The position numbers were made by a program, and so were the translations under genes. From NCBI GenBank assembly GCA_022711615.1, contig JAKLER010000005.1, positions 1-39,227 on the forward strand: a DNA stretch of 39,227 nucleotides, read 5' to 3'. The DNA is from Acidobacteriota bacterium. Lineage in GTDB: Bacteria > Acidobacteriota > Thermoanaerobaculia > UBA5066. The first letter of the stretch is position 1. Each line of letters begins with the position of its first letter. Below the pieces are notes generated by a model. The model saw only the letters and a program-made list of their open reading frames with translations, did not search any database and was not told the origin of the DNA. Of this stretch, positions 1 through 36,807 are shown piece by piece.

Positions 1-3000
1 GTCCTCACGGGCCTCCTGGGGCGGATCCTCGACGGCCGGCCCCACCTCGCCGTGAACCTCGACCGGAAGGGGAGGAACGGCGTCGAGACGCTCCAGCTCG
101 CGCTCGCGCGCCTCGTGGCGGCGGGCGTTCCGATGTCTCCCGCGAAGCCCTTTGCCGACGTCCGCGTCGACCGAACCGAGGGGACGGCCGCGGCCTCGAA
201 GCTCGCCGTCGCGATCGACGGCAGCAACCACGGCAAGCTCTATCCCCCGCCGGGCGGCGCCGCGTCGCTTCCCGCCCCGAACCCGCCGCGGCCCGCGCCG
301 CTCCCGCAGCAGGGCGCGTCCGCCCCGGCGAATCCCCCTGCCGCAGCCCCCCAGGAGAGCCCGATGAGGATCGAGACCGCCGTGCCCGTTTCGTCCGCTC
401 CGTCTCCGTCGCACGAGGCGCCCGCCCGCGCGCTGGCCGGGAACCCTTCGGACTGGGTCCTCGCGTTCCAGGAGACGCAGCGGCAGACCGCCGAGGCTCA
501 CGCCGTCTACCAGCGGGCGATGGCCGAGAGCCACGCCTCGTTCCTCCGCGTCGCCGAGTCGGGGATGCTCGGCCTCACCGCGATGGTGACGGGCCAGCCC
601 CTCGCGATGCCGGCGCCGATGCCCGCGAAGGAGCCCGCTTCGCGCTTCGTCCCCGAGCAGCCGGCGACCGTCCGGGCCGCGGCCCCGGCAGAGGTGCACG
701 GTCCGGCTCACGTGCCGGTCGCTGCCGTCGTGGAGACCCCGGCGCCGCCAACCGCGGCTCTCGCGGCGCAGCCCGCGCCGCCCGTCGTCGTGCCCCTCGC
801 TTCCGCCGCGTCTCCGACGGCGGCGACCTCCGACGTCGACCTCGTGGGCCTCATGCTCGCGGTCGTCGCGGAGAAGACGGGCTACCCGGCCGACATGCTG
901 AACCTCGGGATGGACCTCGAGGGGGACCTCGGGATCGATTCGATCAAGCGGGTCGAGATCCTGTCGGCCGTCGCCGACCAGGTGCCGGAGCTCCGGTCGG
1001 TGGACATGGGCCACATGGGCTCGCTCCGCACGCTCGGCGCCATCGTCGAGTACATGAAGGAGCTCGCGCCGCAGGAGCCGGCCGCTCCGCCGGCGAAGAG
1101 CGCGGCGACCTCCGACGTCGACCTCGTGGCCCTGATGCTCGCGGTCGTCGCGGAAAAGACGGGCTACCCGGCCGACATGCTGAACCTCGGGATGGACCTC
1201 GAGGGAGACCTCGGAATCGACTCGATCAAGCGGGTCGAGATCCTCTCGGCCGTCGCCGACCAGGTGCCGGAGCTGCGGTCCGTGGACATGGGCCACATGG
1301 GGTCGCTCCGTACGCTCGGCGCCATCGTCGAGTACATGAAGGGCGTCGGGCAGCCGGGAGCGGCGTCCGTTGCGGCTCCGACGACGGCGCCCGCGACGGC
1401 GCCCGTTGCGGTTCCGGCCGCGCCCGCGGCGGTCCACGCCGCGAAGGCCGCGCCGGCGCTGGGCCGGTTCGCTCTCGAGAGGATAGCGGCCCCGGCCACC
1501 GGCCTCGCGCAGCCCGGACTCCTCTCGGGCGGCGAGGTCTGGGTCATCGGGTCGCCGGAGCTGAACGAGCCTCTCGCGGCCGAGCTGCGCGCTCGCGGCG
1601 TCAACGCGAGAACGACGTCGACCCTCCCCGAGGGAGCGACGGCCTGCGTCTACCTTGGCGGCCTCCGGGACGTCGCGGACGTCGACGAGGCGATCGCGGT
1701 CAACCGCGAAGCGTTCGCCCTCGCGCGCACCCTGGCGGTGCGGCTCGAGAAGGAACGCGGCCTCTTCGTGACGGTGCAGGACACGGGAGCCGCCTTCGGG
1801 ACCGCTCCGATGGACCCGCGGCGTGCCTGGCTCGCGGGCCTGCCGGCGCTCGTGAAGACGGCGGGGCAGGAGTGGCCGCAGGCTTCTCTGAAGGCCGTCG
1901 ACCTCGAACGCGGCGGACGCGGGGCGGATGAGATCGCGAGGGCGCTTGCTTCCGAGCTCCTCGAAGGGGGAGGCGAGGCGGAAGTCGCCCTCCCGGCGGC
2001 GGGAGGCCGCTTCACGCTCCGCAGCGTCGCGAAGCCCGTGACGGCCGGCGCGCCGGTGATCGTCCCCGGCGATGTCGTCGTCATCTCGGGAGGCGCGCGA
2101 GGGGTCACGGCCGCGTGCGTCGAGGAGTGGGCGCGGGAGAGCCGTGCGCGCTTCGTCCTCCTCGGGAGGACGCCGCTCGCGCCGGAGCCCGCCTGCTGCG
2201 CGGGCATCGCGGAAGAAGCCGGCCTGAAGAAGGCGCTCCTCGCCGAGGCCCGGGGCCGCGGCGAGAGCCCCGTGCCGGCCGAGCTCGGGGCCCGGGTCCA
2301 CGAGGTTCTCGCGAACCGCGAGATCCGCCGGACCCTCGACGCGATCGCAGCCGCGGGCGGCGAGGCGCGATACGAGGCCGCGGGCGTCGAGGACGCCCAG
2401 GCGCTCGAAGCGGTCCTGGCCCGCGTCCGCTCCGAGTGGGGCCCCGTCGCCGGGGTCGTCCACGCCGCGGGCGTCCTCGCGGATCGGAACATCTCGCAGA
2501 AGACCGACGCGCAGTTCGACCGGGTCTTCGACACGAAGGTGCAGGGGCTCCGCGCGCTCCTCGCCGCCACCGCGAGCGATCCGCTGAAGCTCCTCTGCGT
2601 CTTCTCGTCGGTCTCGGCCCGCTGCGGAAACAACGGCCAGGCCGACTACGCCATGGCGAACGAGGTCCTCGCAAAGGTCGCCTGGGCCGAGTCCCGCCGC
2701 CGCCCGGAGCTCCTCGTGAAGTCGCTCGGGTGGGGGCCCTGGGAGGGCGGGATGGTCACGCCGCAGCTGAAGGAGCGGTTCGCCGCGCTCGGCGTCCCGA
2801 TGATCCCGCTCGTCGCGGGAGCACGGATGTTCGTCGACGAGCTCCGCGGCGCGGAGCGCGCGGAGGTGGAGCTCGTCCTCGGCGGAGAGCCGCGGGCCGA
2901 GGCGCTCCTCTTCGCGGGCGCCGACGCGCGGGTCCAGGAGCTCGAGGTGAAGGTCCAGCGGGGGAGCCACGGCTGGCTCGAAGGGCACTCGATCAAGGGG

Positions 3001-3735
3001 ACCCCGGTCGTGCCGGTGGTCCTCGCGGCCGAGTGGCTCTCTCGCGCGGCCCGCTCCTTCCGGCCTGGCCTCGCGCTCGCCGCGCTGCACGACATCAAGG
3101 TCCTGAAGGGAATCCGCCTCGGAGCATTCGACAACGGGGGCGACCGGTTCGTCATCCAGGCCCGCCAGACCTCGGGCGGCCCCGGGACCTGGCTCCAGCT
3201 GGACGTCCGCGGATCGGCGGGGACCCACCACTACAGCGCCCGGGCCGAGCTGCGGCCCGAGCTCCGGGCCCCGGAGAGCGAGCTCCCCGAGCTCCCGCTC
3301 GGGGAGTGGTCCGGGGAGCCGATCTACCGTGACCTCCTCTTCCACCGCGGGGCTTTCGAGCTGATCGAGGAGGTCGAGGGGATCTCCGACCACGGGGCCG
3401 GAGGGCGCGTGAGAGGCGTCGAGCGCGCCGGATGGCCGAACGGCACGGCGAACCCCTGGCAGCTCGACGTCGCGGCCCTCGACGGAGGGCTCCAGGTCGC
3501 GGTCCTCTTCGCGCAGCGGATGCTCGGGAAGGAGAACCTGCCGACGACGATCGGCGAGCTGCGGTCGTACCGCTCCGCTCCGTCGCCGGGCGTCGTGAGC
3601 GTGGCCGCGTACCGCCGCAAGGTGGGGAGCCTCGGCGTCACGACGGACATCCACTTCACCGACGACGAGGGGCGTCGCCTCGCGTCGCTCCTCGGGGTCG
3701 AGACCCACGCGTATCCGGCCGGCAGCCAGGCCTGA
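1..3735 (+). CDS. pfa2: Pfa2/PfaA-type PUFA (secondary lipid) synthase subunit, 5'-truncated by window: AT tail-ACP-ACP-KR-DH
   Basis: The frame is open from base 1, so the gene starts upstream; a GTG at 52 is internal. Numbered from base 1, residues 1-45 match the end of the acyltransferase domain of the next gene. A Pro/Ala linker follows with a helical block at about 149-197, then two ACPs (275-353 and 369-447) with the Pfa-type DSIKR motif and phosphopantetheine serines Ser314 and Ser408. A structural plus catalytic ketoreductase spans about 490-960: GGARGV at 697, Ser870, Tyr883, Asn887, all as expected for an active NADPH-dependent KR. The C-terminus (about 970-1220) is a PKS-type double-hotdog dehydratase with His996 in GHSIKG and Asp1161 in DGGLQ. 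The family builds long polyunsaturated acyl chains de novo in the cytosol; the missing N-terminus should carry KS and AT. The stop lies 4 bases before the next gene, so the two are co-transcribed. Two ACPs is a low number for this family. The exact product (EPA, DHA, AA or another lipid) cannot be read from the sequence. Confidence 0.9.
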   Translation, partial: VLTGLLGRILDGRPHLAVNLDRKGRNGVETLQLALARLVAAGVPMSPAKPFADVRVDRTEGTAAASKLAVAIDGSNHGKLYPPPGGAASLPAPNPPRPAPLPQQGASAPANPPAAAPQESPMRIETAVPVSSAPSPSHEAPARALAGNPSDWVLAFQETQRQTAEAHAVYQRAMAESHASFLRVAESGMLGLTAMVTGQPLAMPAPMPAKEPASRFVPEQPATVRAAAPAEVHGPAHVPVAAVVETPAPPTAALAAQPAPPVVVPLASAASPTAATSDVDLVGLMLAVVAEKTGYPADMLNLGMDLEGDLGIDSIKRVEILSAVADQVPELRSVDMGHMGSLRTLGAIVEYMKELAPQEPAAPPAKSAATSDVDLVALMLAVVAEKTGYPADMLNLGMDLEGDLGIDSIKRVEILSAVADQVPELRSVDMGHMGSLRTLGAIVEYMKGVGQPGAASVAAPTTAPATAPVAVPAAPAAVHAAKAAPALGRFALERIAAPATGLAQPGLLSGGEVWVIGSPELNEPLAAELRARGVNARTTSTLPEGATACVYLGGLRDVADVDEAIAVNREAFALARTLAVRLEKERGLFVTVQDTGAAFGTAPMDPRRAWLAGLPALVKTAGQEWPQASLKAVDLERGGRGADEIARALASELLEGGGEAEVALPAAGGRFTLRSVAKPVTAGAPVIVPGDVVVISGGARGVTAACVEEWARESRARFVLLGRTPLAPEPACCAGIAEEAGLKKALLAEARGRGESPVPAELGARVHEVLANREIRRTLDAIAAAGGEARYEAAGVEDAQALEAVLARVRSEWGPVAGVVHAAGVLADRNISQKTDAQFDRVFDTKVQGLRALLAATASDPLKLLCVFSSVSARCGNNGQADYAMANEVLAKVAWAESRRRPELLVKSLGWGPWEGGMVTPQLKERFAALGVPMIPLVAGARMFVDELRGAERAEVELVLGGEPRAEALLFAGADARVQELEVKVQRGSHGWLEGHSIKGTPVVPVVLAAEWLSRAARSFRPGLALAALHDIKVLKGIRLGAFDNGGDRFVIQARQTSGGPGTWLQLDVRGSAGTHHYSARAELRPELRAPESELPELPLGEWSGEPIYRDLLFHRGAFELIEEVEGISDHGAGGRVRGVERAGWPNGTANPWQLDVAALDGGLQVAVLFAQRMLGKENLPTTIGELRSYRSAPSPGVVSVAAYRRKVGSLGVTTDIHFTDDEGRRLASLLGVETHAYPAGSQA
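823..1059 (+). repeat. ACP-coding direct repeat, copy 1
   Basis: A 237-base unit encoding the first acyl carrier protein. It recurs 282 bases downstream with only scattered, mostly synonymous differences (for example gaagacg/aaagacg and gggggac/ggagac). The modification serine is in the codon at 940. Confidence 0.9.
1105..1341 (+). repeat. ACP-coding direct repeat, copy 2
   Basis: Second copy of the 237-base ACP unit; the modification serine codon is at 1222. The only amino-acid change I see in the shared unit is Gly to Ala just after the DVDLV segment. The copies are separated by a 45-base Ala/Pro linker. Confidence 0.9.
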
Positions 3736-3739
3736 GCCG

Positions 3740-6700
3740 ATGCCGTTCGCCCCGATCGCCATCGTCGGGCGCTCCTGCGTCCTGCCCGGCGCGCTGGACC
3801 CTTCCGCGCTCTGGGAGCTCGTCGCCGCGGGGCGCGACGTCGTCGGAGAGGCGCCCGAAGAGCGCTGGGGGCTCGAGAAGTCCGAGGTCCTTCGCGACCC
3901 GCGCGGCCCGGCGCCGGACGGTGCCTGGTCCGACCGCGGCGGCTACGTCTCGGGCTTCGAGGCGGTCTGGGACCCGGCGGGGTTCGGGGTCGGCGAGAGG
4001 GAGCTCGAGGGGCTCGACCCGCTCGCGCACTGGGTCCTCCACACGGCGCGCGAGGCGCTGAGAGACGCTGGAGACGGCAGGTCCGGCACGGTCGCCCGCC
4101 CTCGGACCGGCGCCGTCTTCGGCAACCTCGGCTTCCCGTCGGAGGGGATGGCCGCCTTCGCGCGGAGCGTCTGGACGGAGAACGGGCGCGCCGGCGAGGG
4201 AGCGGGCGTCGACCCGCGCAACCGGTTCATGAGCGGCGGGACCGCGACGCTCCTCTCCCGCGCGCTCGGCCTCGGATCGGGCGCCTTCTGCCTCGACGCC
4301 GCCTGCGCGAGCTCGCTCTACGCGATCAAGCTCGCGTGCGACCGCCTCCACGACGGCGAGGCCGACGTGATGCTCGCGGGGGCCGTCCAGCGCGCCGACG
4401 ACCTCTTCCTCCACGTCGGCTTCACGGCCCTCGGCGCGCTGAGCCGGAGCGGCCGGTCGCGCCCCTTCCACAAGGACGCCGACGGCCTCGTCCCGGCGGA
4501 AGGTGCCGCGTTCGTCGCCCTGAAACGCCTCGACGACGCCCGGCGGGACGGCAACACGATTCACGGCGTCATCCGGGGCGTCGGCCTCTCGAACGACGGG
4601 CGCGGCAAGGGCCTCCTCGCGCCGTCGGAGGAGGGGCAGGAGCGCGCCATCCGGGCCGCCTACGAGGAGGCGGGCCTCGGCCCCGAGCAGGTCTCCCTCC
4701 TCGAGGCGCACGCGACGGGGACGCCCGTCGGGGACGCCGCGGAGATCCGGAGCACGGGCGCCGTCTTCGCCGGGCTCGGCGGCGTGGCGCTCGGCTCTCT
4801 CAAGTCGAACCTCGGGCACCTCATCACGGTCGCCGGCGTCGCCGGGCTCCTGAAGGTGCTCGGAGCGATGAAGGCCGGACAGCGGCCTCCCACGCTCCAT
4901 GCCGAGGAACCGACCCGCGCGCTCGACGGCTCGCCGTTCCGGCTCGTCGAGAAGCTCGAGCCGTGGCCGTCCGACGGGCCGCGGGTCGCCGCGGTCTCGG
5001 CGTTCGGCTTCGGCGGGAACAACGCGCACCTCGTCGTCTCCGAGGATTCGGCGGAGCTGGACGAACGGGTCGGTATGCGCGAAGCCGTTCCGGCTCCGCC
5101 TCCGGCGCTCGCCGTCGTCGGGCTCGGCTGCGCCGTGGCGAGCGCCCCGGACCGGCGGCGATTCGCCGAGGCGCTCTTCTCGAACGAGAGCCTCCTCGAC
5201 GCGAGCGGTGAAGGCCGCCTCGGCCCGGTCGAGCTGGACCTCGAAGGTCTCCGCTTTCCTCCGAAGGACCTCGCCCAGACCCTGCCGCAGCAGCTCGCCA
5301 CGCTCCGCGCCGCCACGGAGGCGCTCGCCGGGAGCGGCCCGCTGCCGCGCGAGAGGACCGGCGTCTTCGTCGGGATGGAGCCCGACCCCGAGGTGGCCCG
5401 TTGGGGGACGCGCTGGCGCCTCGCCCGCACGGCCCGCGAGACGGGCGCCTCCGCGGAGTGGCTCCGGAGCGCGCGCGACGCGGTCGTCCCCGTCCTCGAG
5501 GCGGCGGCGGTCGTCGGGACGATGCCGAACATCCCGGCGAACCGGCTCAGCTCGCAGCTCGACCTGGGCGGGCGCGCGTTCAGCGTGCAGGCGGGCGAGG
5601 CCTCGGGAACGACGGCGCTCTCCCTCGCGATGCGGGCCCTCCGTTCCCGCGAGCTCGACGCGGCGCTCGTCGGCGCCGCCGACCTCTCCTGCGAGAAGGT
5701 CCACTCGAGCGCGGTCGGGGCGCTCGCCGACGGAGCGCCGAACCCGCCCGGGGACGCCGCGGTCGTCCTCGTCGTGAAGCGGCTCGAGGACGCCGAGCGG
5801 GACGGCGACAGGGTCTGGGCGCTCATCGAGGAACAGGGAGGAGCGGACGGGGAAGGACGCGAGGGAGGCGGAGCGCCGCTCCTCCTCTCCGGCGAAGGCT
5901 CGACGAGCCTCGTGCCGCGGTTCGGGCACGCCCACGCCGCGTCGGACCTCGTCCACGTCGCCGCCGCGGCGTTGAGCCTCCATCACCGCAGGCTCCCGGG
6001 CGGGAGGCCGTGGCTCCCGTCTGGCGCATTCGCCCGCGCAGCGTGCGTCGCGGTTCCGAACGGCCCGTCGATCCGTCTCACGGAGGCCGAGGCGCACCCG
6101 CGCCGCGGCGAGGACGAAGCCCCGCGCCTGCGCTGTTTCGCGGGACCCGACCGCGCGGCGGTGATCGACGCGCTGCGCTCCGGTCGCGAAGGACTCGGCG
6201 CGGAGGCGGCCGCCCGCCTCGTCGTCGTGGCTCGAGACGGGAACTTCGAGGACGTGCGAGCGCGGGCCCTGGCGCATCTCGAGAAGGGAACGCCCGCAGG
6301 CCCTGGAATCCACTTCCGCGAGCGCCCCGTGGGCGGCGACCTCGCCTTCGTCTTCGCCGGAGCCGGGGCGGCCTACCGCGGCATGGGCCGCGACCTCCTC
6401 GAGCGGCTGCCGGGCCTCGCCGACTCGCTCGCGCGCCGCAGCCGGAGGCTCCCCCGCGCGCTCGCGTGGTCCTTCGAGGACGACTCCCGCGAGCCCACGG
6501 TCCTGGAGCAGCTCTGGGGAGCCTCCGCGCTCTGCCAGCTCCACGCCGAGTTGACCCGCGGCTTCCTCGGGATCGTGCCCCACGCGTGGCTCGGGTATTC
6601 CTCGGGCGAGACGAACGCCCTCCTCGCCTCCGCGACGTGGACCGACGCCGACGCGCTGATCGAGGAGAGCGAGAGCTCGGGGCTCTTCACGCGCGACCTC

Positions 6701-9700
6701 GGCGGGAGCTTCGCCGCGATCGAGAGGGCCTGGGGCACCCCGGTCCGCTGGGCGTCCTTCACCGTCCTCGCTCCCGTGGCCGACGTGACGGCGGCGGTGG
6801 CCCGCGAGGAGAAGGTGCACCTCGCGATCGTTCACGGCGACGAGGAGTGCGTCATCGCAGGCGACGAGGACGGCTGTACCCGCGTCGTCGCGGCGCTGGG
6901 AGAGGGCCGCTGCCTGCGTCTCGGGTACCCGCTCGCGGTCCACGTCCCCGAGCTCGACACGGTGCGCGATGCCTGGCTCTCGCTCCACCGCCGATCGACG
7001 ACCCCGCCGCTCCCGGCCGCGTCGCGGTCCGCCGCGCGCTTCTACACGAACGCCACGGGCGGCTCCTACGCGCCGACGTCCGAGAGCTGCGCGCAGGCGA
7101 TCCTCGGCCAGGCGAACCGGACGCTCGACCTCCGCCCGACCGTCCTCCAGGCCTTCGAGGACGGCGTCCGCGTCTTCGTCGAGCACGGGCCGCAGGCCGC
7201 GTGCGGCCGCTGGATCCGCGCGATTCTCGGCGAGCGCGAGGCGCTCGTCGTCAGCCTCGACCGGAAGGGGCAGGGGCTCGAGGCGACGCTCGACGCGCTT
7301 GCGGCGCTCGTCGCCGCGGGCGTGCCGCTGCGCGCCGGGGCCCTCGACGAGCTCGATACGCTGCTGCGAGGAGAGCGTCCCTCGCCCGGCAGCGGCCGGA
7401 GCCTCTCCTTCCCCGCGCACCCTCCCGCGATAACGATTCCGCCCGTCCCCGCGGTCGGCGCCAGGATCGGAGCGGCGGACGCGCGAGAGATGACCCCGGC
7501 CCCGGCCCTTCCGCCGGTGATCGACGAGGAGTGGGGCGTCCGTCCCGCCGAGCCTGCTGGACTCGCGGCCCCGCGTGAACGGAGCGTCACGCCGGTCACG
7601 CCGGTCACGCTGGTCGCGCCCGTGGCGCCTGTCGTGCCTGCGTCGCCCGCCTCCTCCGCACCTCCCGCCCTCGTTCCTTCCGCCGTCCTTGACGGCTTCC
7701 GCGCCCACGTGGCGCAGCTCTCGCGAATCCAGCAGGACCACGTCCTCGTCCAGCAGGCGCTGCACGAGCGGTTCCTCTCCCTGCGCGGGTCCGCGATGGA
7801 GACCTTCCTCCACGCGGCGAGCCGCGCGGGAACGGCGCAGGCCACACCCGCCCCGGAGGCCCCGACGGTTCCGGCGACTCCCTCCGTCGCGCCGGCTCCG
7901 CCTGTGCCGCCCGTCGCGGCCGTTCCGTCGCCGGTCGCGCTGGTCCCCGTTCCGGCCCCGACGCCCCGCCGCGACGGCGAGCTCGTCGGACCCCGCTTCG
8001 ACCGCCGCCAGCTCGAGGTCCACGCCGGCGGCCGGATCTCCGAGATCTTCGGCCCCGCGTTCGCCGCGCAGGACGCGTACGAGAGGCAGGTGAGGATGCC
8101 GCTCCCGCCGCTCCTCCTCGCCGACCGCGTCGTCGGCCTCTCAGCCGAGCCCGCGAGTATGGGGAAAGGGACGATCTGGACCGAGACCGACGTGACGTGG
8201 GACTCCTGGTACCTCCACCAGGGGTACATGCCGCCGGGCCTGATGATCGAGGCGGGCCAGGCCGACCTGATGCTGATCTCGTACCTCGGGGTCGACCTCC
8301 TGAACCGGGGAGAGCGGGTCTACCGCCTCCTCGGCTGCGAGCTGACGTGGCACGGCGACCTGCCGCGGGCCGGCGACACGCTCCGCTTCGGGATCCACCT
8401 CGACGGCCACGCGGCGCAGGGCCCCGTGCGGCTCATGTTCTTCCACTACGACTGCACGAACGGCCACCGGCCGCAGCTGACGGTGCGGAACGGCCAGGCG
8501 GGCTTCTTCACCGACGCGGAGCTGGCGGAGTCGGCCGGCTGCCTCTGGAGCCCCGAAGAGCAGGAGATCGTTCCCGAGCCGCGCCTCGCGCCGGCGGCGG
8601 TCCGTTGCACGAAGAGCCGTTTCGAGAGGGAAGAGCTGGAGGCCTTCGCCCGCGGCGACGCGTTCGGCTGCTTCGGAGCGGGCTTCGAGCGGGCGAAGAC
8701 CCACACGCGGAGCCCGCGCATCCCCGAAGGGCGGATGCTCCTCCAGGACCGCGTCACCGAGCTCGACCCCTCGGGCGGGCCGTGGGGCCGCGGGTACCTC
8801 CGGGCCGAGCTCGACGTGAAGCCTGACCTCTGGTTCTTCGACGGCCACTTCAAGAACGACCCGTGCATGCCCGGGACGCTGATGTTCGACGGCTGCCTGC
8901 AGGCGATGTCGTTCTACCTCGCCGCCCTCGGCTTCACGCTGCCGCGGGACGGCTGGCGCTTCCGCCCCGTCGCCGAGCTGCCGTACCAGCTCCAGTGCCG
9001 CGGACAGGTCACGCCCTCGTCGCGCCGCCTCGTCACGGAGGTCTTCGTCGAGGAGGTCGTCGGCGGTCCGACGCCGACGCTCTTCGCCGACCTCCTCTGC
9101 ACCGTGGACGGCCTGAAGGCGTTCCACGCGCGGCGCGTCGCGATCGAGCTCGTCCCCGACTGGCCGCTCGAGGCGATGCCGGCGCTTCTCGCCGAGGCGG
9201 CGGCCGACCTGCGGCCCGCGGCCGAGGTCGACGGCTTCCGCTTCGACCGAACGAGCCTCCTCGCCTGCGCCTGGGGAAAGCCGTCGAAGGCCTTCGGCCC
9301 GATCTACGCGCGCTTCGACGGGCCGACGCGCGTCGCCCGCCTCCCGGGGCCGCCGTACCTCTTCATGAGCCGTGTGACGGAGGTCGACGGCGCGATCGGC
9401 GTCATGAAGGCGGGCGCGACGACGACGGTCGAATACGACGTTCCCGCCGACGCCTGGTACTTCGACGAGAACGGCGCGCGGACGATGCCGTTCGCCGTCC
9501 TCCTCGAGGCGGCCCTCCAGCCGTGCGGCTGGCTCTCGAGCTACGTCGGCTCGGCGCTGAGCGTCGACGAGGAGCTCGGCTTCCGCAACCTCGACGGCAC
9601 CGGACGGCTCCTCGGCGAGGTCTTCCCCGACTCCGGCACGCTCACGACGCGCGTGAAGCTGAACGGCGTCTCGGCCACCGGGACGATGATCATCGTGTCG

Positions 9701-12391
9701 TTCGAGGTGACCTGCTCCGTGGGGGAGCGGCCGGTCTACGAGATGAAGACCGTCTTCGGCTTCTTCCCGCCCGCCGCGCTCGCGAGCCAGGCCGGGCTTC
9801 CCGTTCCCGACGCGCAGCGCGAGCTGCTGGAGCGGCCGGGAAACGTCCTCGTCGACCTGACGACGCGGGCCGCCGCCTTCTTCGACCCGCGCCGGCCGCG
9901 GATCGCGGGGCCGATGCTCCGGATGATCGACCGCGTCGACGGCCTCTGGCCCGGGGCGGGGAAGGCGGGCCTCGGCCAGCTGCGCGCCGTCAAGGACGTC
10001 GACGCGGGCGAGTGGTTCTTCAAGGCCCACTTCTTCCAGGACCCGGTGCAGCCCGGCTCCCTCGGGATCGAGGCGATGATCCAGGCGCTGCAGCTCTTCA
10101 TGCTCGAGGCGGGAATGGACGACGGGATCGTCGCGCCCCGCTTCGAACCGCTCGCGACCGGTGCGGACCTCACCTGGAAGTACCGCGGGCAGGTCCTCCC
10201 GCACCACCGGGCCGTCCACACGACGATCGAGATCACGGCGAAGGGGCGCGACGAGCGGGGCGCCTGGGCCATCTGCGAGGCGAGCCTCTGGGCCGACGGG
10301 CAGCGGATCTACGAGGCGACGAACCTCGGCATGCGGATCGTCCCGGGCAACCCGGCGGACGCGCCGCGGACGAACGAGATCGTCCTCGACCCGGAGAGCG
10401 ACCGCTGGCTCCTCGACCACCGTCCGACCTGGACCGTGCCGGCGCTCCCGATGATGAGCATCGTCGACCTCCTCGCCCGAGGCTCCACGGGCGACGGCCC
10501 CGTGACCGGCCTGCGCGACGTGCGCGTCGGCGGCTGGTTCCTCGTGGACGAGCCGCGGCGCCTCCGCACCGAGGAGTCGGGCGGGGTCGTCCGGCTCCTC
10601 GCGCCGACGCCGGAAGGGGAGAAGGAGGTCGCGCGGGCCCGCGTCGTTCGCGGCGAGTACGCGCCCCGCCCCGAGCCGCTCCCCGAGGCGCGCGGCGCGG
10701 ACGTCCCGCTCCCGTACGAGACGGGCGAGCTGTTTCACGGACCCGCGTTCCAGGTCGCCGAGCGCCTCGTGATGGGGAAGGGCGAGTCGTCGATCACGCT
10801 GCGCGCCGAGAGCGGCGTTCCCGTCGGTCTCCTGAACCCGGGCCTCCTCGACGGTGCGACGCACGGCATCCCGCACGCGGAGCTCCACGGATGGAACGAC
10901 GCCTCCGACCCGGGCAAGGTCGCGTTCCCCGCGTTCATTCCCGAGATCGACTTCTTCGGCCCGACGCCTGTCGCCGGAAGCATCCGGTGCGAGGTCCGGC
11001 AGCAGCCATACCTCGGCAGCCCCGATTACCCGGTCTTCCGGATCCAGCTCGTCGGACCGGACGGCGTCTGGTGCCAGCTCCGCCTCGTCGAGTCGTGCTT
11101 TCCGAAGGGGCCTCTCGGCTCGACCGACCCGGCGTCGCGCCGCGCCTTCCTGCGCGACCGGACGCCGGTCGAAGACCTTCGTCTCTCGCGCGTCGAGAAC
11201 GGCGCGACAGTCCTGACGGACGCGGACGTCGCGGCGACCGACTGGCTGCCCGGCACCGTCGCGGCGGTCTACGGCTCCCGCGAAACGGAGGAGATCGCCC
11301 GCGCCGAGCACGCGGCCGCGGCGCACGCGCTCCACCCGGGACGGGTCTTCGCGCAGCTCCCGCTCACGCGCTTCGACCTCGCCGCCGAGCGGGCGGGCGG
11401 CGAGGTGCGCGTCTCGGGCGACGGCCGGGGAAGGCTCGACCTGACGCCCGTCCGCCGGTTCTGGACGCGCTGGTTCGACCGCGGGCCGTGGCCCGTGGAG
11501 GACCTCTACTACGGCCTCGTCGGCCGCTTCGTCGGGCGCGTCGTCGTCGGAGACCCGGCGGCGTACGCGGCGCTCCGCGGCCGGAGCGTCCTCTACCTCG
11601 CGAACCACCAGACGGGCGTCGAGTCGCTCCTCTTCTCGATCGTCGCGTCGGCGCTGAACGAGGTCCCGACCGTCACGCTCGCGAAGATCGAGCACCGCGA
11701 GACCTGGCTCGGAAGGCTCATCGCACTTTCCTTCGCCTACCCGGGCGTGGCCGACCCGCGCCTCATGACCTTCTTCGACCGCGAGGACAAGGCGAGCCTC
11801 CCCCGCGTCATCGGCGAGCTCGCCGCCGAGATGAAGGGGCCGGGCCGGTCGGTCATGGTCCACGTGGAGGGGACACGGTCCCTGACCTGCCGCAAGCCGG
11901 TCGAGAAGATGAGCGGCGCGTTCGTCGACATGGCGCTCGCGGTCGGCGCCCCGATCGTCCCGGTGAGGTTCGTCGGGGGCCTGCCGGCCGAGCCGCTCGA
12001 GAAGCGCCTCGAGTTCCCGCTCGGCATGGGCCGCCAGGACATCCACCTCGGAGAGCCCCTGTTGCCCGAGCGCCTCGCCGGCCTCCACTACGGCGCCCGA
12101 AAGGCGCTCGTCGTCGCGGCGATCAACGCTCTCGGCGTCCCGAACGCCCTGGAGCAGCCCTACCCCGGCGACCCCGACTTCGAGAGACGCGTGAACGCCT
12201 GGCAGGCCGCGCGCGACGTCTCCCACGAGCACGCGACGCTCCGCGAGGTCCTCGCGGAGCTGGACTCGCCGGGCGACGAGGTCCGGCGGCTCCTCGCGCC
12301 CCCGAACGCCGCCGCCCTCGCCGGGGACGAGACCCCGGCGGGGCGGTGGCTGCGGGAGCTGGGCCGGAGGCTCCTGGGAGAGGGACCCTAG
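3740..12391 (+). CDS. pfa3: Pfa3/PfaC-type PUFA synthase subunit: KS-CLF-AT-DH-DH-DH(PKS)-AGPAT, 2883 aa
   Basis: Giant multidomain synthase starting with ATG 4 bases after the previous stop. Domains by eye: ketosynthase 3-430 with Cys189 (ACASS), His324 (HATGT) and His360 (GHL); chain-length-factor 455-740, a KS fold with Glu620 where Cys would be; acyltransferase 868-1190 with Ser954 in GYSSGE and probable His1068; Pro/Ala linkers around a helical block at 1314-1364; FabA-like hotdog pair with active half His1703/Asp1717; second pair with His2097/Glu2111, each preceded by a divergent half; PKS-type dehydratase about 2210-2465 with His2227 and Asp2371; an unassigned segment 2466-2600; and a lysophosphatidate-acyltransferase-like domain 2600-2830 with NHQTGVE at 2622-2628 and VEGTRS. 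This order matches terrestrial myxobacterial Pfa3, in which the terminal acyltransferase is thought to transfer the finished chain to lysophosphatidic acid. Its stop overlaps the convergent flotillin stop by 4 bases. No ER or PPTase gene is in the window. Confidence 0.92.
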   Translation: MPFAPIAIVGRSCVLPGALDPSALWELVAAGRDVVGEAPEERWGLEKSEVLRDPRGPAPDGAWSDRGGYVSGFEAVWDPAGFGVGERELEGLDPLAHWVLHTAREALRDAGDGRSGTVARPRTGAVFGNLGFPSEGMAAFARSVWTENGRAGEGAGVDPRNRFMSGGTATLLSRALGLGSGAFCLDAACASSLYAIKLACDRLHDGEADVMLAGAVQRADDLFLHVGFTALGALSRSGRSRPFHKDADGLVPAEGAAFVALKRLDDARRDGNTIHGVIRGVGLSNDGRGKGLLAPSEEGQERAIRAAYEEAGLGPEQVSLLEAHATGTPVGDAAEIRSTGAVFAGLGGVALGSLKSNLGHLITVAGVAGLLKVLGAMKAGQRPPTLHAEEPTRALDGSPFRLVEKLEPWPSDGPRVAAVSAFGFGGNNAHLVVSEDSAELDERVGMREAVPAPPPALAVVGLGCAVASAPDRRRFAEALFSNESLLDASGEGRLGPVELDLEGLRFPPKDLAQTLPQQLATLRAATEALAGSGPLPRERTGVFVGMEPDPEVARWGTRWRLARTARETGASAEWLRSARDAVVPVLEAAAVVGTMPNIPANRLSSQLDLGGRAFSVQAGEASGTTALSLAMRALRSRELDAALVGAADLSCEKVHSSAVGALADGAPNPPGDAAVVLVVKRLEDAERDGDRVWALIEEQGGADGEGREGGGAPLLLSGEGSTSLVPRFGHAHAASDLVHVAAAALSLHHRRLPGGRPWLPSGAFARAACVAVPNGPSIRLTEAEAHPRRGEDEAPRLRCFAGPDRAAVIDALRSGREGLGAEAAARLVVVARDGNFEDVRARALAHLEKGTPAGPGIHFRERPVGGDLAFVFAGAGAAYRGMGRDLLERLPGLADSLARRSRRLPRALAWSFEDDSREPTVLEQLWGASALCQLHAELTRGFLGIVPHAWLGYSSGETNALLASATWTDADALIEESESSGLFTRDLGGSFAAIERAWGTPVRWASFTVLAPVADVTAAVAREEKVHLAIVHGDEECVIAGDEDGCTRVVAALGEGRCLRLGYPLAVHVPELDTVRDAWLSLHRRSTTPPLPAASRSAARFYTNATGGSYAPTSESCAQAILGQANRTLDLRPTVLQAFEDGVRVFVEHGPQAACGRWIRAILGEREALVVSLDRKGQGLEATLDALAALVAAGVPLRAGALDELDTLLRGERPSPGSGRSLSFPAHPPAITIPPVPAVGARIGAADAREMTPAPALPPVIDEEWGVRPAEPAGLAAPRERSVTPVTPVTLVAPVAPVVPASPASSAPPALVPSAVLDGFRAHVAQLSRIQQDHVLVQQALHERFLSLRGSAMETFLHAASRAGTAQATPAPEAPTVPATPSVAPAPPVPPVAAVPSPVALVPVPAPTPRRDGELVGPRFDRRQLEVHAGGRISEIFGPAFAAQDAYERQVRMPLPPLLLADRVVGLSAEPASMGKGTIWTETDVTWDSWYLHQGYMPPGLMIEAGQADLMLISYLGVDLLNRGERVYRLLGCELTWHGDLPRAGDTLRFGIHLDGHAAQGPVRLMFFHYDCTNGHRPQLTVRNGQAGFFTDAELAESAGCLWSPEEQEIVPEPRLAPAAVRCTKSRFEREELEAFARGDAFGCFGAGFERAKTHTRSPRIPEGRMLLQDRVTELDPSGGPWGRGYLRAELDVKPDLWFFDGHFKNDPCMPGTLMFDGCLQAMSFYLAALGFTLPRDGWRFRPVAELPYQLQCRGQVTPSSRRLVTEVFVEEVVGGPTPTLFADLLCTVDGLKAFHARRVAIELVPDWPLEAMPALLAEAAADLRPAAEVDGFRFDRTSLLACAWGKPSKAFGPIYARFDGPTRVARLPGPPYLFMSRVTEVDGAIGVMKAGATTTVEYDVPADAWYFDENGARTMPFAVLLEAALQPCGWLSSYVGSALSVDEELGFRNLDGTGRLLGEVFPDSGTLTTRVKLNGVSATGTMIIVSFEVTCSVGERPVYEMKTVFGFFPPAALASQAGLPVPDAQRELLERPGNVLVDLTTRAAAFFDPRRPRIAGPMLRMIDRVDGLWPGAGKAGLGQLRAVKDVDAGEWFFKAHFFQDPVQPGSLGIEAMIQALQLFMLEAGMDDGIVAPRFEPLATGADLTWKYRGQVLPHHRAVHTTIEITAKGRDERGAWAICEASLWADGQRIYEATNLGMRIVPGNPADAPRTNEIVLDPESDRWLLDHRPTWTVPALPMMSIVDLLARGSTGDGPVTGLRDVRVGGWFLVDEPRRLRTEESGGVVRLLAPTPEGEKEVARARVVRGEYAPRPEPLPEARGADVPLPYETGELFHGPAFQVAERLVMGKGESSITLRAESGVPVGLLNPGLLDGATHGIPHAELHGWNDASDPGKVAFPAFIPEIDFFGPTPVAGSIRCEVRQQPYLGSPDYPVFRIQLVGPDGVWCQLRLVESCFPKGPLGSTDPASRRAFLRDRTPVEDLRLSRVENGATVLTDADVAATDWLPGTVAAVYGSRETEEIARAEHAAAAHALHPGRVFAQLPLTRFDLAAERAGGEVRVSGDGRGRLDLTPVRRFWTRWFDRGPWPVEDLYYGLVGRFVGRVVVGDPAAYAALRGRSVLYLANHQTGVESLLFSIVASALNEVPTVTLAKIEHRETWLGRLIALSFAYPGVADPRLMTFFDREDKASLPRVIGELAAEMKGPGRSVMVHVEGTRSLTCRKPVEKMSGAFVDMALAVGAPIVPVRFVGGLPAEPLEKRLEFPLGMGRQDIHLGEPLLPERLAGLHYGARKALVVAAINALGVPNALEQPYPGDPDFERRVNAWQAARDVSHEHATLREVLAELDSPGDEVRRLLAPPNAAALAGDETPAGRWLRELGRRLLGEGP

Positions 12392-13635
12392 CCCTTCTCT
12401 TCCGGCGCGCCGAGCCTCCCGACGACCTTCGCGAGGTCGACGCCGAAGGCGGCCTTGACCTGCTCGACGAGCTGGACGCCCTGCGCGACCTTCGCGGAGG
12501 CGGGGAGGTAGGCGACGCGGTCGACCTTGACGCTCTGGATCGTCTCGACGAGGGACGACATGACGCTCTGGAGCTTCTGCATGAGGAAGATGTCGCGGGC
12601 GTTCGGGCCGGCGGCCTTCCACGTCTCGATCATCTGGGTCAGGACGGCGGCGGTCGCCCGGCCGTCCTCCACGATCTTCGCGGCCCGGCCGCGCGCCTCG
12701 GCCTGCTTCTTCTCCATGTCGGCGCGGGCGGGGGCGACGACGTCGGCCTCGAGCTTCAGGCGGACCTGCTCGAGGCGCGCCTTCTGGACCTTCAGCTCGG
12801 CCTCGGCCTTGGCGATCGCGGCGGTCACCTTGCCGACCTCCTCGGCGATCATCGCCTCCTGGCCCGTCACGCACTGGGTGATCCGCTTCTCGGCCTCGGC
12901 CTGGGCGATCGCCCCCTCGGCGTCGACGAGGGCGAGGCGGGCGGAGAGGTTGTTCTCGGCCTCGCGCACGGAGGCCTCGGCGTGGGCCTGCGCCTCGGCG
13001 ACGCGGGCGCTCTTGTCGAGGGCGGCGGTCTGCTTGCGGCCGAGGGAGTTCAGGTAGCCGACGTCGTCGGCGACGTTCTGGATCTTCAGGACGTCGAGGA
13101 TCAGGCCGAGGCGGGAGAGGTCGTGCTCGGCCTCCTCGAGGAGCTTCTCGGCGAAGCGGAGCTTGTCCTGGTTGACCTCCTCGGGGGTGAGCTGCGAGAG
13201 GACGCCGCGGAGGTTCCCTTCGAGGGTGTCCTTGGCGACCTGAATGATCTGGGGGCGGCCCCTGCCGAGGAGCCGCTCGAGGGCGTTGTTCAGGAGCGGC
13301 TGGTGGCCCGCGACCTTGAGGTTCGCGACGCCCTGCACCGTGAGCGGGATGCCCCCCTTGGAGTAGGCGTTCGACACGGCGACGTCGACGGTCATGTTTG
13401 TGATGTCCATCCGGTCGACCCGCTCGAGGAGCGGCGTCCGGAGGGAGCTCCCCCCCTTGACGATCCGGTAGCCGACGGGGCGCCCCTCGACGGTCGACTT
13501 CCCGCCGGAGAAGACGAGGACCTCGTTCGGGGAGCAGATGTGGAAGAGGCGCTTGACGACGACGAGCGCCGCGGCGCCGAAGAAGAGGACGACGCCGACC
13601 GCGACGCCGACGACGGAGCCGAGGTCGCCGATCAT
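12388..13635 (-). CDS. Flotillin-like SPFH/band 7 protein, second paralogue (415 aa)
   Basis: Starts at ATG 13635, preceded by GGAGGT 7 bases upstream and overlapping the stop of the upstream flotillin by 4 bases (ATGA). An N-terminal hydrophobic segment at about residues 7-30 is followed by the SPFH region (NEVLVFSGGK, an LLERVDRMD segment, NAYSKGGIPL) and a long Ala/Glu-rich coiled coil at about 215-345. Flotillins oligomerise on the inner face of the membrane and organise microdomains. The similarity to the upstream gene runs the full length, so the pair is a tandem duplication. It is last in the nfeD-flotillin-flotillin operon. Family assignment is firm; the specific cellular process is unknown. 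Confidence 0.88.
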   Translation of the reverse strand: MIGDLGSVVGVAVGVVLFFGAAALVVVKRLFHICSPNEVLVFSGGKSTVEGRPVGYRIVKGGSSLRTPLLERVDRMDITNMTVDVAVSNAYSKGGIPLTVQGVANLKVAGHQPLLNNALERLLGRGRPQIIQVAKDTLEGNLRGVLSQLTPEEVNQDKLRFAEKLLEEAEHDLSRLGLILDVLKIQNVADDVGYLNSLGRKQTAALDKSARVAEAQAHAEASVREAENNLSARLALVDAEGAIAQAEAEKRITQCVTGQEAMIAEEVGKVTAAIAKAEAELKVQKARLEQVRLKLEADVVAPARADMEKKQAEARGRAAKIVEDGRATAAVLTQMIETWKAAGPNARDIFLMQKLQSVMSSLVETIQSVKVDRVAYLPASAKVAQGVQLVEQVKAAFGVDLAKVVGRLGAPEEKG

Positions 13636-14906
13636 CGCGCCACCTCCGTGCGGGCCGGGGAGAGGAGCGCGACGACGTCCACCCCCGTCGTCCGGCTCAC
13701 CTCGGCGAGGACGCTCCGCACCGCGGCCGGGTACGACGCGACGTACGTGGCGAGCGAAGAGCCGTCGCCGCCGTCGAGGAGGTGGGCCTCGCCGACCTCC
13801 ATCTCCTTCACCCGCTCGACGACGGTCCGGAGGATCTGCTCGAGGTTGTGGATGAGGAAGATGTCCTTCGCGTCGGGGCCGGCGCTCACCCACGCGGTCG
13901 TCATCAGCTTGAGCACCTCGGCGAGGGCCCAGCCGTTCTCCTCGATCGTCGCCGCGGCTCCGCGCGCCGCGAGGGCCGCGGCCTGCTGGGCCGCCTGGGC
14001 CGGGAGGACCTCCTCGGCCGTCAGGCGCGTCTCCTCGAGCTCCTTGCGGATGGCCTGGAGCTTCTGCTCGGCCTCGGCGCGGGCCTGGAGCGCGGCCTGG
14101 ACGGCGGTCTCCTCGGCGGCCTTCGCCTTCGCCTCGAGCTGCGCCTTGAGCGTCTTCAGCTCGTTCTCCTTCTTCGCGATCGCCGTCGCGGCCTGCTGGT
14201 TCGCGACCTCGCCCGTCCGGCGGGAGACGGCTTCGCCCTGGGAGGCTTCGGAGCGGGCGAGCGACTCGGCCATCTCCGCGTCGCGCAGGACCATCGCGAT
14301 CCGGGCGCGGCCGATGTTCGCGAGGTAGTTCGCCTCGTCGGAGATGTTCTGGATCTTCAGCGTGTCGAGCGTCAGGCCGAGCTTGCGGAAGTCCCCCTCG
14401 GCCTCGTCGACGAGGCCGGTCGCGAACTTGAGGCGGTCCTCGTTGACCTCCTCCGGCGTCATGTTCGCGAGGACGCCTCGGAGGTGCCCCTCGAGGCTCT
14501 CCTTGGCGACGCGCGCGATCTCGGCCGGGTCTCGCCCGAGGAAGCGCTCGATGGCGTTCCCGACGACGCGCGGGTCGGAGGAGACCTTGACGTTCGCGAT
14601 CGCGTGGACCCGAAGCGGGATGCCGCCCTTGGAGTAGGCGTTCGCCACCTTCAGGTCGATCGGGATCGACAGGAGGCTCATCCGGTCGACCCGCTCGAGG
14701 ATCGGGATCCGGACGGACCGCCCGCCGAGCACGACCCGGTAGCCGACCTGGCTCCCGTCGGCGAGCTTCCGCTTGCGCCCCGAGAAGATGACGACCTGGT
14801 TCGGCGGGCAGATGACGAGGATCGACTTCGCGAGGAGCGAGAGGATACCGAGGGAGACGGCACCCGCGACGACACCTGCTCCGATTCCGGCGAGAGAGTC
14901 GAGCAC
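13632..14906 (-). CDS. Flotillin-like SPFH/band 7 protein, first paralogue (424 aa)
   Basis: Start chosen at GTG 14906 because AGGAGGT lies 5-6 bases upstream. One membrane-spanning or re-entrant hydrophobic segment at about 5-32 precedes the SPFH domain (NQVVIFSGRKRK, ILERVDRMS, NAYSKGGIPLRV) and a charged heptad-rich coiled coil at about 210-340. The C-terminus (AKDIFLIHNLEQIL) has a clear counterpart in the downstream paralogue. It sits 25 bases after the NfeD-like gene; NfeD and flotillin are a classic bacterial pair implicated in membrane microdomain assembly and stress tolerance. The two paralogues probably form hetero-oligomers, which is an inference from the tandem arrangement. Confidence 0.88.
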   Translation of the reverse strand: MLDSLAGIGAGVVAGAVSLGILSLLAKSILVICPPNQVVIFSGRKRKLADGSQVGYRVVLGGRSVRIPILERVDRMSLLSIPIDLKVANAYSKGGIPLRVHAIANVKVSSDPRVVGNAIERFLGRDPAEIARVAKESLEGHLRGVLANMTPEEVNEDRLKFATGLVDEAEGDFRKLGLTLDTLKIQNISDEANYLANIGRARIAMVLRDAEMAESLARSEASQGEAVSRRTGEVANQQAATAIAKKENELKTLKAQLEAKAKAAEETAVQAALQARAEAEQKLQAIRKELEETRLTAEEVLPAQAAQQAAALAARGAAATIEENGWALAEVLKLMTTAWVSAGPDAKDIFLIHNLEQILRTVVERVKEMEVGEAHLLDGGDGSSLATYVASYPAAVRSVLAEVSRTTGVDVVALLSPARTEVAR

Positions 14907-14931
14907 GACGACCTCCTGGCTCTGGGGGTAG

Positions 14932-15468
14932 CTATTCCTTCCAGGGAGCGGGCTCGACCTCGGCGATCCCGTCCCGGAAGCGGACGACGACGACGCGTTC
15001 GCGGATCTGGATCGGCTCGCCGCCCGTCCGGGCGGGGACCTCGACGTCCTGGTCGGCGACGTGGAGGCGGATCTTCCCGAGGCCGTCGGGGAGGAGCGGG
15101 AGGACGACCTCGCCCTCCGTCCCGAGGAACGCCTCGGTCGAGGCCGGGCTCGTCGCGGCCCCGCGGCCGAGGGACCGGAAGAGGGTCGCGACGCCCGTGC
15201 CGACGACGAAGCCGAGGACGACCGAGACGGGGACGTGGACCGGGGCGCCGACGCCGAGGAGCGAGAGGGCCGTCCCCGCCATGCCGAACGCCCCGAGGGC
15301 GTAGGTCCAGAAGCGGAGAGAGAAGAGGTTCGAGAGGAAGGCGCCGTGGTCGGCGTCGCCGCCGCCGTGATCGTCCCCGGTGTCGTGGCTGTCCCCGTCC
15401 CCGTGGAAGACGGAGGCCCCGATCAGGACGAGGCCGAAGGCCAGCGCGGCGAGGTAGACGGTCAGCAT
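14932..15468 (-). CDS. NfeD-like membrane protein with OB-fold tail (178 aa)
   Basis: First gene of the flotillin operon. It has an N-terminal transmembrane helix (about 3-20), a His/Asp/Gly-rich loop (about 23-42), two or three further hydrophobic segments (about 50-110) and a C-terminal beta-rich region (about 115-175; TEAFLGTEGEVVLPL, IQIRERVVVVRF) typical of the NfeD OB fold. It lacks the N-terminal ClpP-like protease of long NfeD proteins, so it is a short, YuaF/NfeD1b-like form. The partner role with flotillin is family knowledge. The acidic/His loop could bind metal, but this is speculative. A -10-like TAAACT lies only 9 bases before the ATG, suggesting a leaderless mRNA. Confidence 0.8.
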   Translation of the reverse strand: MLTVYLAALAFGLVLIGASVFHGDGDSHDTGDDHGGGDADHGAFLSNLFSLRFWTYALGAFGMAGTALSLLGVGAPVHVPVSVVLGFVVGTGVATLFRSLGRGAATSPASTEAFLGTEGEVVLPLLPDGLGKIRLHVADQDVEVPARTGGEPIQIRERVVVVRFRDGIAEVEPAPWKE

Positions 15469-34868: not shown

Positions 34869-35807
34869 TCACTTCGCGGCGTTCAGGTAGCGGAGGAGGT
34901 CGCCGTCGGTGGAGAGGACGAGCGTCGTCTCCGGGTCGACGCTCTCCCGGAGCGTCGTCATCGACTTCAGGAACCGGTAGAAGTCGGGGTCGCGGTTGTA
35001 GGCGGCGGCGTAGATGTCGGCGGCCTGCGCGTCGGCCTTGCCCCGGATCTCCTGCGCCTTCCGGTACGCCTCCGACTCGATGACCCGGAGCTGCCGCTCC
35101 TTCTCGCCCGCGATGCGGGCGGCCTCGCCCGCCCCCTCGGAGCGGTAGCGTTCGGCGATCCGCTTCCGCTCGGAGATCATCCGGGCGTAGACCTCCTGCC
35201 TCACCGCCTCGACGTAGTTGATCTGCTTGATCCGAAAGTCGAGGATCTCGATCCCGAGGTCGTGGGTCCGCTTCCGAGCGTTCGCGAGGACCTCCTCGGT
35301 CAGCTTCTCGCGGCCGTACTCCACCTTCTCGGCCGGCTCCGGCTGCGAAAGGTCGGCCATGTCGTCGCCGACGACGAAGGGGCGGTTCGTCGACCTCACG
35401 ATGTCGATCAGCTCGTGCTTGGCGATCGTGTTCCGGGTCTCGCCGTCGAGGATGTCGTCGAGACGCGACTGCGCGCCCCGCTCGTCGCGGAGGCGCTGGA
35501 AGAAGAGGAGCGGGTCGGTGATGCGCCAGCGGGCGTAGCAGTCGACCCAGATGAACCGCTTGTCCTTCGTCGGGATCTGGTTCGGGTCGCCGTCCCACTC
35601 CATGAACCGCTTCTCGAAGGCGTGGACGACCTGGATGAACGGCGCCTTCATCTTCAGGCCGGGCGTCGTGATCGGCTTGCCGACCGGCTTGCCGAACTGG
35701 GTGACGATGACCTGCTGCGTCTCGGCCACCGTGTAGAGCGAGCTCGAGAGGACGACGACCGCGAGGACGGCGGCGAGGACGAGGGAGGCGATCCGGGCTT
35801 CCTTCAC
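34869..35807 (-). CDS. hflC: HflC, SPFH-family regulator of FtsH protease (312 aa)
   Basis: GTG 35807 overlaps the hflK stop (GTGA). An N-terminal transmembrane anchor (about 6-28) is followed by VAETQQVIVTQFGKPV, the SPFH domain, and the HflC-typical stretch EVLANARKRTHDLGIEILDFRI. A coiled coil with ERKRIAERYRSEG follows, ending with YRFLKSM. HflK and HflC form a large periplasm-facing cage around FtsH in the inner membrane and modulate its proteolysis. ftsH is not in the window. Co-translated with hflK and a normal length. Confidence 0.93.
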   Translation of the reverse strand: MKEARIASLVLAAVLAVVVLSSSLYTVAETQQVIVTQFGKPVGKPITTPGLKMKAPFIQVVHAFEKRFMEWDGDPNQIPTKDKRFIWVDCYARWRITDPLLFFQRLRDERGAQSRLDDILDGETRNTIAKHELIDIVRSTNRPFVVGDDMADLSQPEPAEKVEYGREKLTEEVLANARKRTHDLGIEILDFRIKQINYVEAVRQEVYARMISERKRIAERYRSEGAGEAARIAGEKERQLRVIESEAYRKAQEIRGKADAQAADIYAAAYNRDPDFYRFLKSMTTLRESVDPETTLVLSTDGDLLRYLNAAK

Positions 35808-36790
35808 GGCTTCACCTCCGGGGCGCCCGCGAGGGGCAGGAGGGGGAGGACCCCCTTCAGCTTCTCGTCGAGGACGACCTTCCTCTTCACCTTCGGGTAG
35901 ATCTCGCCCATCGTCTCGAGGTGCATCCGGCGCCGGGTCACCTCGGGGGCGCGCTGGTAGGCGGCGTGGACCTTCACGAAGAGCTCGGCGTCGCCGCGGG
36001 CCCGGTTGACGCGGTCGGTCGCGAAGCCCTCGGCCTGCTCGATCGTCTGCTGGGCCTGTCCGCTCGCGCGCGGGATGATCTGGTTGTAGTCGGCGCGGGC
36101 CTGGTTGATCAGCTTCTCGCGCTCCTGCTGGGCCTGGTTGACCTCGTTGAACGAGGGCTTGACCGGGTCGGGCGGGTTCACGTCCTGCAGGACGATCTGC
36201 TCGACCTTGATGCCGGTCTCGTACTGATCGCAGAGGTCCTGCAGCCGCTGCTCGACCTCGGCGGCGATCTCCTGCCGGCCGACGGTCAGGACCTCGTTCA
36301 CGCTCCGGTCGCCGATGATCTCGCGCATGACCGTCTCGTTCATGTCGCGGAACGTCTTCTGGACGCTCCGGACCTTGAAGAGGAACTTGTACGGGTCGCG
36401 GACCCGGTACTGGGCCGTCCACTCCACGACCGCCACGTTCAGGTCGCCCGTCAGCATCAGCGACTCGGAGGAGAGGTCCTCCTGCGAGTAGGTCGAGCGG
36501 GGGGAGGCGGAGGCATCCGTCCGGAAGCCGAACTCCTCCTTCAGCTGCCGCTCGACGGGGACCTTCACGACCCTCTCGATCGGGCTCGGGAGCTTCAGGT
36601 GGAGGCCCGGGGAGACGGTCCGGGCGTACTTCCCGAACCGGAGGACCAGCCCCGCCTCCTCCGGCTCGATCGTGAACCAGGACGAGAAGAGGACGACGAA
36701 CGCCACGACGCCGAGGGCTCCGCGGGCCAGGAGTCGGACCGGGATGCTCGGGGTCCGGAGCCGCGTCCCGTCGGGGAATTGGATCTCCAT
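35804..36790 (-). CDS. hflK: HflK, SPFH-family partner of HflC (328 aa)
   Basis: ATG 36790 has AGGAGA about 7 bases upstream. One transmembrane helix (about 20-42) is followed by the family motif EAGLVLRFGKY, the LHLKLPSPIERVVKVPVER region, the SPFH core (EWTAQYRVRDPYKFLF) and the HflK-type segment VLQDVNPPDPVKPSFNEVNQAQ. It lacks the Gly-rich N-terminal extension of E. coli HflK. It forms the hetero-oligomeric HflKC complex with the next gene. A 200-base gap with hairpin-forming GC palindromes separates it from the antiporter gene upstream. Confidence 0.93.
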   Translation of the reverse strand: MEIQFPDGTRLRTPSIPVRLLARGALGVVAFVVLFSSWFTIEPEEAGLVLRFGKYARTVSPGLHLKLPSPIERVVKVPVERQLKEEFGFRTDASASPRSTYSQEDLSSESLMLTGDLNVAVVEWTAQYRVRDPYKFLFKVRSVQKTFRDMNETVMREIIGDRSVNEVLTVGRQEIAAEVEQRLQDLCDQYETGIKVEQIVLQDVNPPDPVKPSFNEVNQAQQEREKLINQARADYNQIIPRASGQAQQTIEQAEGFATDRVNRARGDAELFVKVHAAYQRAPEVTRRRMHLETMGEIYPKVKRKVVLDEKLKGVLPLLPLAGAPEVKP

Positions 36791-36807
36791 CGGGTCTCCT
36801 TTCGCAG

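Follow-up and report, generated by a model that had tools for sequence, protein, structure and literature searches.

Known PUFA Synthases and the Class of the Locus

The myxobacterial Pfa1-Pfa2-Pfa3 synthases make LA, ARA, EPA, DPA or DHA, and their DH1, DH2-DH3, DH4 and Pfa3 AT domains influence the chain length and double bonds of the product (PMC6731297; PMC4882568; PMC8436480). They belong to type L, a type that also covers Actinomycete clusters of unproven product. Among the acidobacterial genomes compared in a 2022 study, only two, both of Acanthopleuribacteraceae, had pfa genes; this family has EPA at 6–12% and a Sorangium-like pfaD-A-B/C cluster (PMC8841776). When long-chain PUFAs (20:4, 20:5) turn up in soil lipids, they are as a rule attributed to fungi or other eukaryotes; one such study allows that bacteria may contribute as well (PMC9969633). 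Added here are the upstream half of an acidobacterial synthase, its host assignment, its placement on the Lysobacterales side, evidence that it is independent of the other type-L lineage in the phylum, and a product prediction that is conditional.

The window, that is, the whole stretch of 39,227 bp that was analysed, is contig C445 of a 4.54 Mb genome (96.5% complete, 1.7% contamination) from an uncultured genus of Acidobacteriota. By its sequence, the synthase falls into an established class, type L (myxobacterial Pfa1-Pfa2-Pfa3), and its host is new. A pfaD (ER) homologue lies at the 5′-end of the cluster, Pfa2 has the order KS-MAT-ACP(n)-KR-PKS-type DH, and PfaB/C is fused as KS-CLF-(AT)-DH-DH. 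Pfa3 ends in the C-terminal AGPAT (PF01553 and EGTRS) that is the myxobacterial hallmark, and the trees place the synthase with type-L synthases. The Pfa1-3 systems of Aetherobacter and Minicystis share with the locus the ER-Pfa2-Pfa3 order, the Pfa3 AT, the PKS-type DH4, the C-terminal AGPAT and the lack of a PPTase in the operon. The locus differs from them in its acidobacterial host, in a core that is nearest to Lysobacterales and in a DH1 that falls in a divergent clade.

The domain order had been predicted to be myxobacterial and not that of the marine PfaABCD, and this was borne out by the leading ER gene and the AT fused into Pfa3. The marine gammaproteobacterial PfaABCDE systems (types A/B) have domains homologous to those of the locus, in which the PfaA and PfaD models score over cut-off and the AT is PfaB-like. 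However, the locus has no separate pfaB gene, its PfaB activity being fused into Pfa3; its order is not A-B-C-D, the ER gene comes first, and DH4 and AGPAT are added. Type R (Koribacter/Solibacter) is a single KS-MAT-CLF-ACP(3-6)-KR protein, whereas the locus is multi-gene with DH and ER. A separate gene that resembles type R was seen in the same genome (L048:1-7231, G000:C518), with the order KS-AT-second KS-ACP-ACP and cut by a contig edge; type R-like genes also occur in the sister genomes G001 and G003.

Operon Structure and Contig Junction

Over the window and contig C231, the operon reads ER, then KS-AT-ACP-ACP-KR-DH1, then KS-CLF-AT-DH2-DH3-DH4-AGPAT. Window base 1 is a contig edge and not a gene start, because the end of C231 (4.7 kb, same genome) is identical to the first 127 bases of the window, and the junction is spanned by one contig of a sister species (G002:C346), which carries ER and most of Pfa2 on a single contig. 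Of the operon, the window itself holds the complete pfa3 and the 3′ part of pfa2. The ER (Pfa1/PfaD) and the first part of Pfa2, KS-AT, are missing from it; both had been proposed as the things to look for upstream, and both lie on C231, with the ER ahead of pfa2. The best PDB relative of the ER protein is PfaD 4yx6. A 29-base end match between C231 and C135 was too short for a confident upstream extension of the operon. The synthase machinery is apparently complete and working.

In the sister genome G001 (C56; L026:6071-8344), a gene about 670 bp upstream of pfa1 and in the same direction encodes an OmpR-type DNA-binding domain and PD40 beta-propeller repeats. This protein is a candidate operon regulator.

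Table 1. Positions and supporting matches of the synthase features (window coordinates unless a contig is given).
Feature	Position	Strand	Evidence or remark
pfa1/pfaD (ER)	C231:325-1971		directly upstream of pfa2; TIGR02814 618 bits, cut-off 449
pfa2, 3′ part	1..3735	+	open frame off left edge; two ACPs, KR, PKS-type DH
Tandem ACPs	838..1341 (about 838-1086, 1114-1341)	+	PF00550 in two stretches; ACP models; Ser in DSI
KR	2077..2745	+	PF08659 1.7e-32; motifs GGARGVT and SSVSARCGNNGQADYAM
DH1, PKS-type dehydratase	2941..3726	+	PF21089/PF14765; His and Asp present
pfa3, complete, KS-CLF-AT-DH2-DH3-DH4-AGPAT, 2883 aa	3740..12391	+	
Pfa3 KS	3752..5053	+	PF00109/PF02801; Cys-His-His present
CLF	5087..6109	+	catalytic Cys replaced by Glu
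PfaB-like AT	6332..7264	+	GYSSGE; TIGR02816 4.5e-22
DH2, FabA-type double hotdog	7997..9154	+	PF07977; active His in second half, GHFKNDPCMPGTL
DH3, FabA-type double hotdog	9221..10324	+	PF07977; active His in second half, KAHFFQDPVQPGSLG
DH4, PKS-type dehydratase	10337..11239	+	His (LLDHRPTW), Asp (LLDGATH)
AGPAT, PlsC-type acyltransferase	11579..11971	+	PF01553 2.4e-8; NHX4E and EGTRS

Domains and Catalytic Motifs

The domain maps of both frames agreed with the original prediction of a two-ACP/KR/DH subunit followed by KS-CLF-AT-DH-DH-DH-acyltransferase. Pfa2 starts at base 2015 of C231, and the joined product has 2108 aa with the order KS-AT-ACP-ACP-KR-DH1. The PfaA model TIGR02813 gave 929 bits for the C231 part of Pfa2 and 518 bits for the window part, which on its own (3e-155) is far beyond chance. 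The single-contig Pfa2 of the sister G002 scored 1304 bits against a cut-off of 1010. The operon may have more than two ACPs. The two copies are almost the same in sequence, an assembly can merge such repeats, and over this stretch the sister contig gives two alignments.

The catalytic motifs were aligned with those of up to 16 relatives. The Cys-His-His of the Pfa2 KS, the MAT motifs GHSLGE/AFH and the catalytic Tyr of KR are intact. The alignment confirmed the earlier reading that the catalytic residues are present everywhere except in the CLF, with one refinement in the AGPAT. The usual PlsC motif I is NHX4D, and the window and every type-L relative aligned have NHX4E.

Pfa3 is 85% identical to its counterpart in the sister genome G001. 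The best PDB chain for its AT is the crystallised PfaBs (9ry8, 4e-22). The Pfa3 AT is without the malonyl-binding Arg: 25 residues after the active Ser it has Ser, where the Pfa2 MAT has Arg. The GYS active site and this Ser fit long-chain transfer rather than malonyl loading (PMC12895367).

Predicted Product and Mechanism

The locus quite probably encodes a type-L PUFA synthase whose product is most likely a C20–C22 PUFA of the EPA/ARA/DPA/DHA kind. Judged from the domains, this PUFA would most likely be esterified into phospholipid. A C20–C22 PUFA on phospholipid is our best guess because the AT absent from Sorangium So ce56 is present and an AGPAT is fused to Pfa3.

We infer the chain length, double-bond positions and lipid destination together with the following reaction sequence. 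A PPTase encoded elsewhere would arm the tandem ACPs, and the Pfa2 MAT would load malonyl units. The Pfa2 KS and the Pfa3 KS-CLF would lengthen the chain by two carbons per round, the KR would reduce, and DH1-DH4 would dehydrate. The FabA-type domains may isomerise some trans double bonds. The ER (Pfa1) would saturate in some rounds and be skipped in others, giving methylene-interrupted cis double bonds. The PfaB-like AT of Pfa3 would handle the long chain, and the AGPAT would esterify it to lysophosphatidic acid on the way to membrane phospholipid. Elsewhere in the genome are an AcpS-type PPTase and an Sfp-type PPTase, of which the second is truncated at a contig edge.

A type-L PUFA synthase that makes a shorter chain, such as linoleic acid or some other C18 PUFA, is a fairly unlikely reading. 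Its model is Sorangium cellulosum So ce56, which has a closely related cluster and is reported to make only LA (PMC4882568). However, So ce56 lacks the Pfa3 AT, a lack that has been blamed for LA (PMC4882568; PMC8436480), and the AT of the locus is intact. AT, DH4 and AGPAT are also all present in the probable Acanthopleuribacteraceae relatives, from a family with reported EPA production. The AT loop and DH1 yielded no residues that decide between n-3 and n-6 or between EPA and DHA. In the literature, we found no reported product for the nearest relatives (Lysobacterales) and no fatty-acid report for Tahibacter.

The divergent DH1 beside an intact AT, DH4 and AGPAT might mean a PUFA with unusual double bonds or chain length, carried into phospholipid as an undescribed acidobacterial lipid, but we regard this as decidedly unlikely. 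A new product had been raised in the original prediction, and nothing found requires one. The companion claim that such products are little described in the phylum does not hold for the Acanthopleuribacteraceae, which make EPA (PMC8841776).

Still less probable is a specialised lipid as the destination of the acyl chain, be it a glycolipid, a phenolic lipid or a hybrid NRPS-PKS lipid, in place of a membrane PUFA. Related synthases make type F glycolipids and type P phenolic lipids (PMC3098273), and others feed hybrid NRPS-PKS clusters. The heterocyst glycolipid synthases (type F, hgl) are iterative KS-CLF-AT relatives of the locus, but type F lacks DH/I domains (PMC3098273), whereas the window synthase has two FabA-type DHs with an active His (DH2, DH3). 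The AGPAT fused to Pfa3 also argues against a specialised lipid. In the approximately 27 kb downstream and among the upstream genes of the sister G001, we identified no glycosyltransferase, NRPS, PKS or type III PKS, and a hybrid product or a glycolipid is therefore unlikely. Thus the glycolipid chain suggested earlier found no glycosyltransferase among the adjoining genes, and the fused AGPAT points to phospholipid instead.

Phylogenetic Analysis

A DH-alignment scan of named genomes gave 80 relatives. In both the quick and the careful DH2-DH3 trees, the window genus was sister to the synthases of Lysobacterales/Rhodanobacteraceae (100/100). The next branch was L055 + L059 (99/98), within the group holding the Sorangium and Actinomycete type-L synthases. 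Sorangium represented the myxobacteria in the trees, standing in for Aetherobacter and Minicystis. The KS-CLF tree agreed with this placement, and DH1 grouped with Lysobacterales (99*) in a divergent clade. In the KS tree, which had been proposed as a check and which held Beijerinckia type P and Rhodococcus comparators and no heterocyst-glycolipid (hgl) sequence, both KSs of the operon fell with PUFA-type KSs, away from the modular PKS, type P and type R-like KSs. The myxobacterial label of the original prediction is thus right for the architecture and for the type-L group, but the closest kin are Lysobacterales, not myxobacteria.

The Lysobacterales/Rhodanobacteraceae synthases (Tahibacter aquaticus, Pseudomarimonas arenosa and MAGs) are the closest in DH2-DH3, DH1, KR and KS-CLF, with a DH region 62–69% identical to that of the window. 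Their Pfa3 stops after DH3, whereas the window Pfa3 has both DH4 and AGPAT, for which the nearest relatives are L055 and L059. Such a pattern could come from a mosaic Pfa3, in which a Lysobacterales-type core (KS to DH3) recombined with a deltaproteobacterial DH4-AGPAT tail: core, KR and DH1 are closest to synthases whose Pfa3 ends after DH3, and the tail is closest to another pair. We consider a mosaic improbable. L055 + L059, which carry DH4-AGPAT, are the immediate sister of the window genus and Lysobacterales together in the core tree, and with the separate domain trees a mosaic is unnecessary. One loss of the DH4-AGPAT tail in Lysobacterales is the simplest account, since L055 + L059, nearest to the window in the tail, also branch next in the core tree. 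The Lysobacterales sisters without DH4-AGPAT provide a natural test of tail-domain function.

Three genomes of about 10 Mb in family f13, of the same class as the host, also hold a type-L cluster, complete in G331. This family is probably Acanthopleuribacteraceae. Its cluster has the same domain set as the locus, including AT, DH4 and AGPAT, but its DH region is 59–63% identical, G331 has four ACPs, and the two synthases are not sisters. A single acidobacterial clade of window and f13 synthases costs 142 log-likelihood units and was rejected (AU p = 3.7e-12). For this reason, the type-L synthases of the window genus and f13 look like separate acquisitions. The host genus probably gained its synthase by gene transfer. 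L098 is another separate acidobacterial lineage. The analysis adds at least one separate type-L lineage, that of the window genus, and indicates repeated transfer.

More distant PUFA-type synthases were seen in two other Acidobacteriota, G112 (L042-L043) and G375 (L146), with ER, KS-AT-ACP-KR-DH and KS-CLF-AT-DH-DH; no DH4-AGPAT was detected in these two. In G112, the synthase is followed by a gene that by eye resembles a KSIII/OleA relative. A type-L-like PUFA synthase was also present in a MAG labelled Klebsiella pneumoniae (L084, CAMAXZ010000055.1), whose label or bin is probably wrong.

Host Assignment, Conservation and Selection

The ER and Pfa3 were found in the genomes of all four species of the host genus, with graded divergence. 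Phylum-wide and class scans were run with the Pfa3 DH region as query. This region was found in 0 of the 10 other genomes of the host family in the class scan, and in only one other genome of an even phylum sample (n = 297). G004 and G023 were not counted as carriers: they gave PfaD matches but no Pfa3 DH region, and their other matches were giant modular PKS frames. The public locus L116 (Acidobacteriota bacterium isolate USPA_metabat.87) has the same domain map as G001:C206.

The window contig also carries chorismate synthase, with an identity of 97–92% in the genus, 80–67% in the family, 65% in the order and 60% in one class member. Because this identity is graded with kinship, the window contig is host DNA, and the suggestion of an acidobacterial host outside the myxobacteria is borne out. 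The nearest synthase relatives are gammaproteobacterial, and the operon is split over two contigs, C231 and the window, as would be seen if proteobacterial DNA had been binned into an acidobacterial MAG by error. Such an error is extremely improbable given the presence of the operon in the whole genus with graded divergence and the chorismate synthase on the same contig. The GC3 of the pfa genes (0.93–0.94) likewise matches that of the conserved genes on the contig (0.94–0.97).

The dN/dS against G001 was 0.12–0.34 in the Pfa3 domains and 0.42 in a linker; the values in the domains indicate that pfa3 is maintained under purifying selection. With its complete and conserved PUFA synthase, the genus joins the candidate bacterial sources of LC-PUFAs, which are mostly ascribed to fungi, algae or marine bacteria.

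Region around the End of pfa3

The synonymous divergence between the host genome and G001 (L044) falls along pfa3, from 0.34 in KS and 0.46 in CLF to 0.11 in AGPAT. This drop toward the AGPAT suggests that the 3′-end of pfa3 recombined between species. In G003:C80 (L046:131-397, 7318-7584) and G001:C177 (L049), 267 bases around the end of pfa3 are repeated approximately 7 kb downstream. The repeats bracket a segment with a subtilase-like gene, which is absent beside pfa3 in the window. The repeat region of G001 and G003 is 99.9% identical, although their pfa3 differs more elsewhere. In the window, pfa3 is followed on the opposite strand (12388-15468, −) by two adjoining SPFH/Band 7 genes and an NfeD-like gene, with one more Band 7 gene, the third, close to the window end (34869-36851, −).
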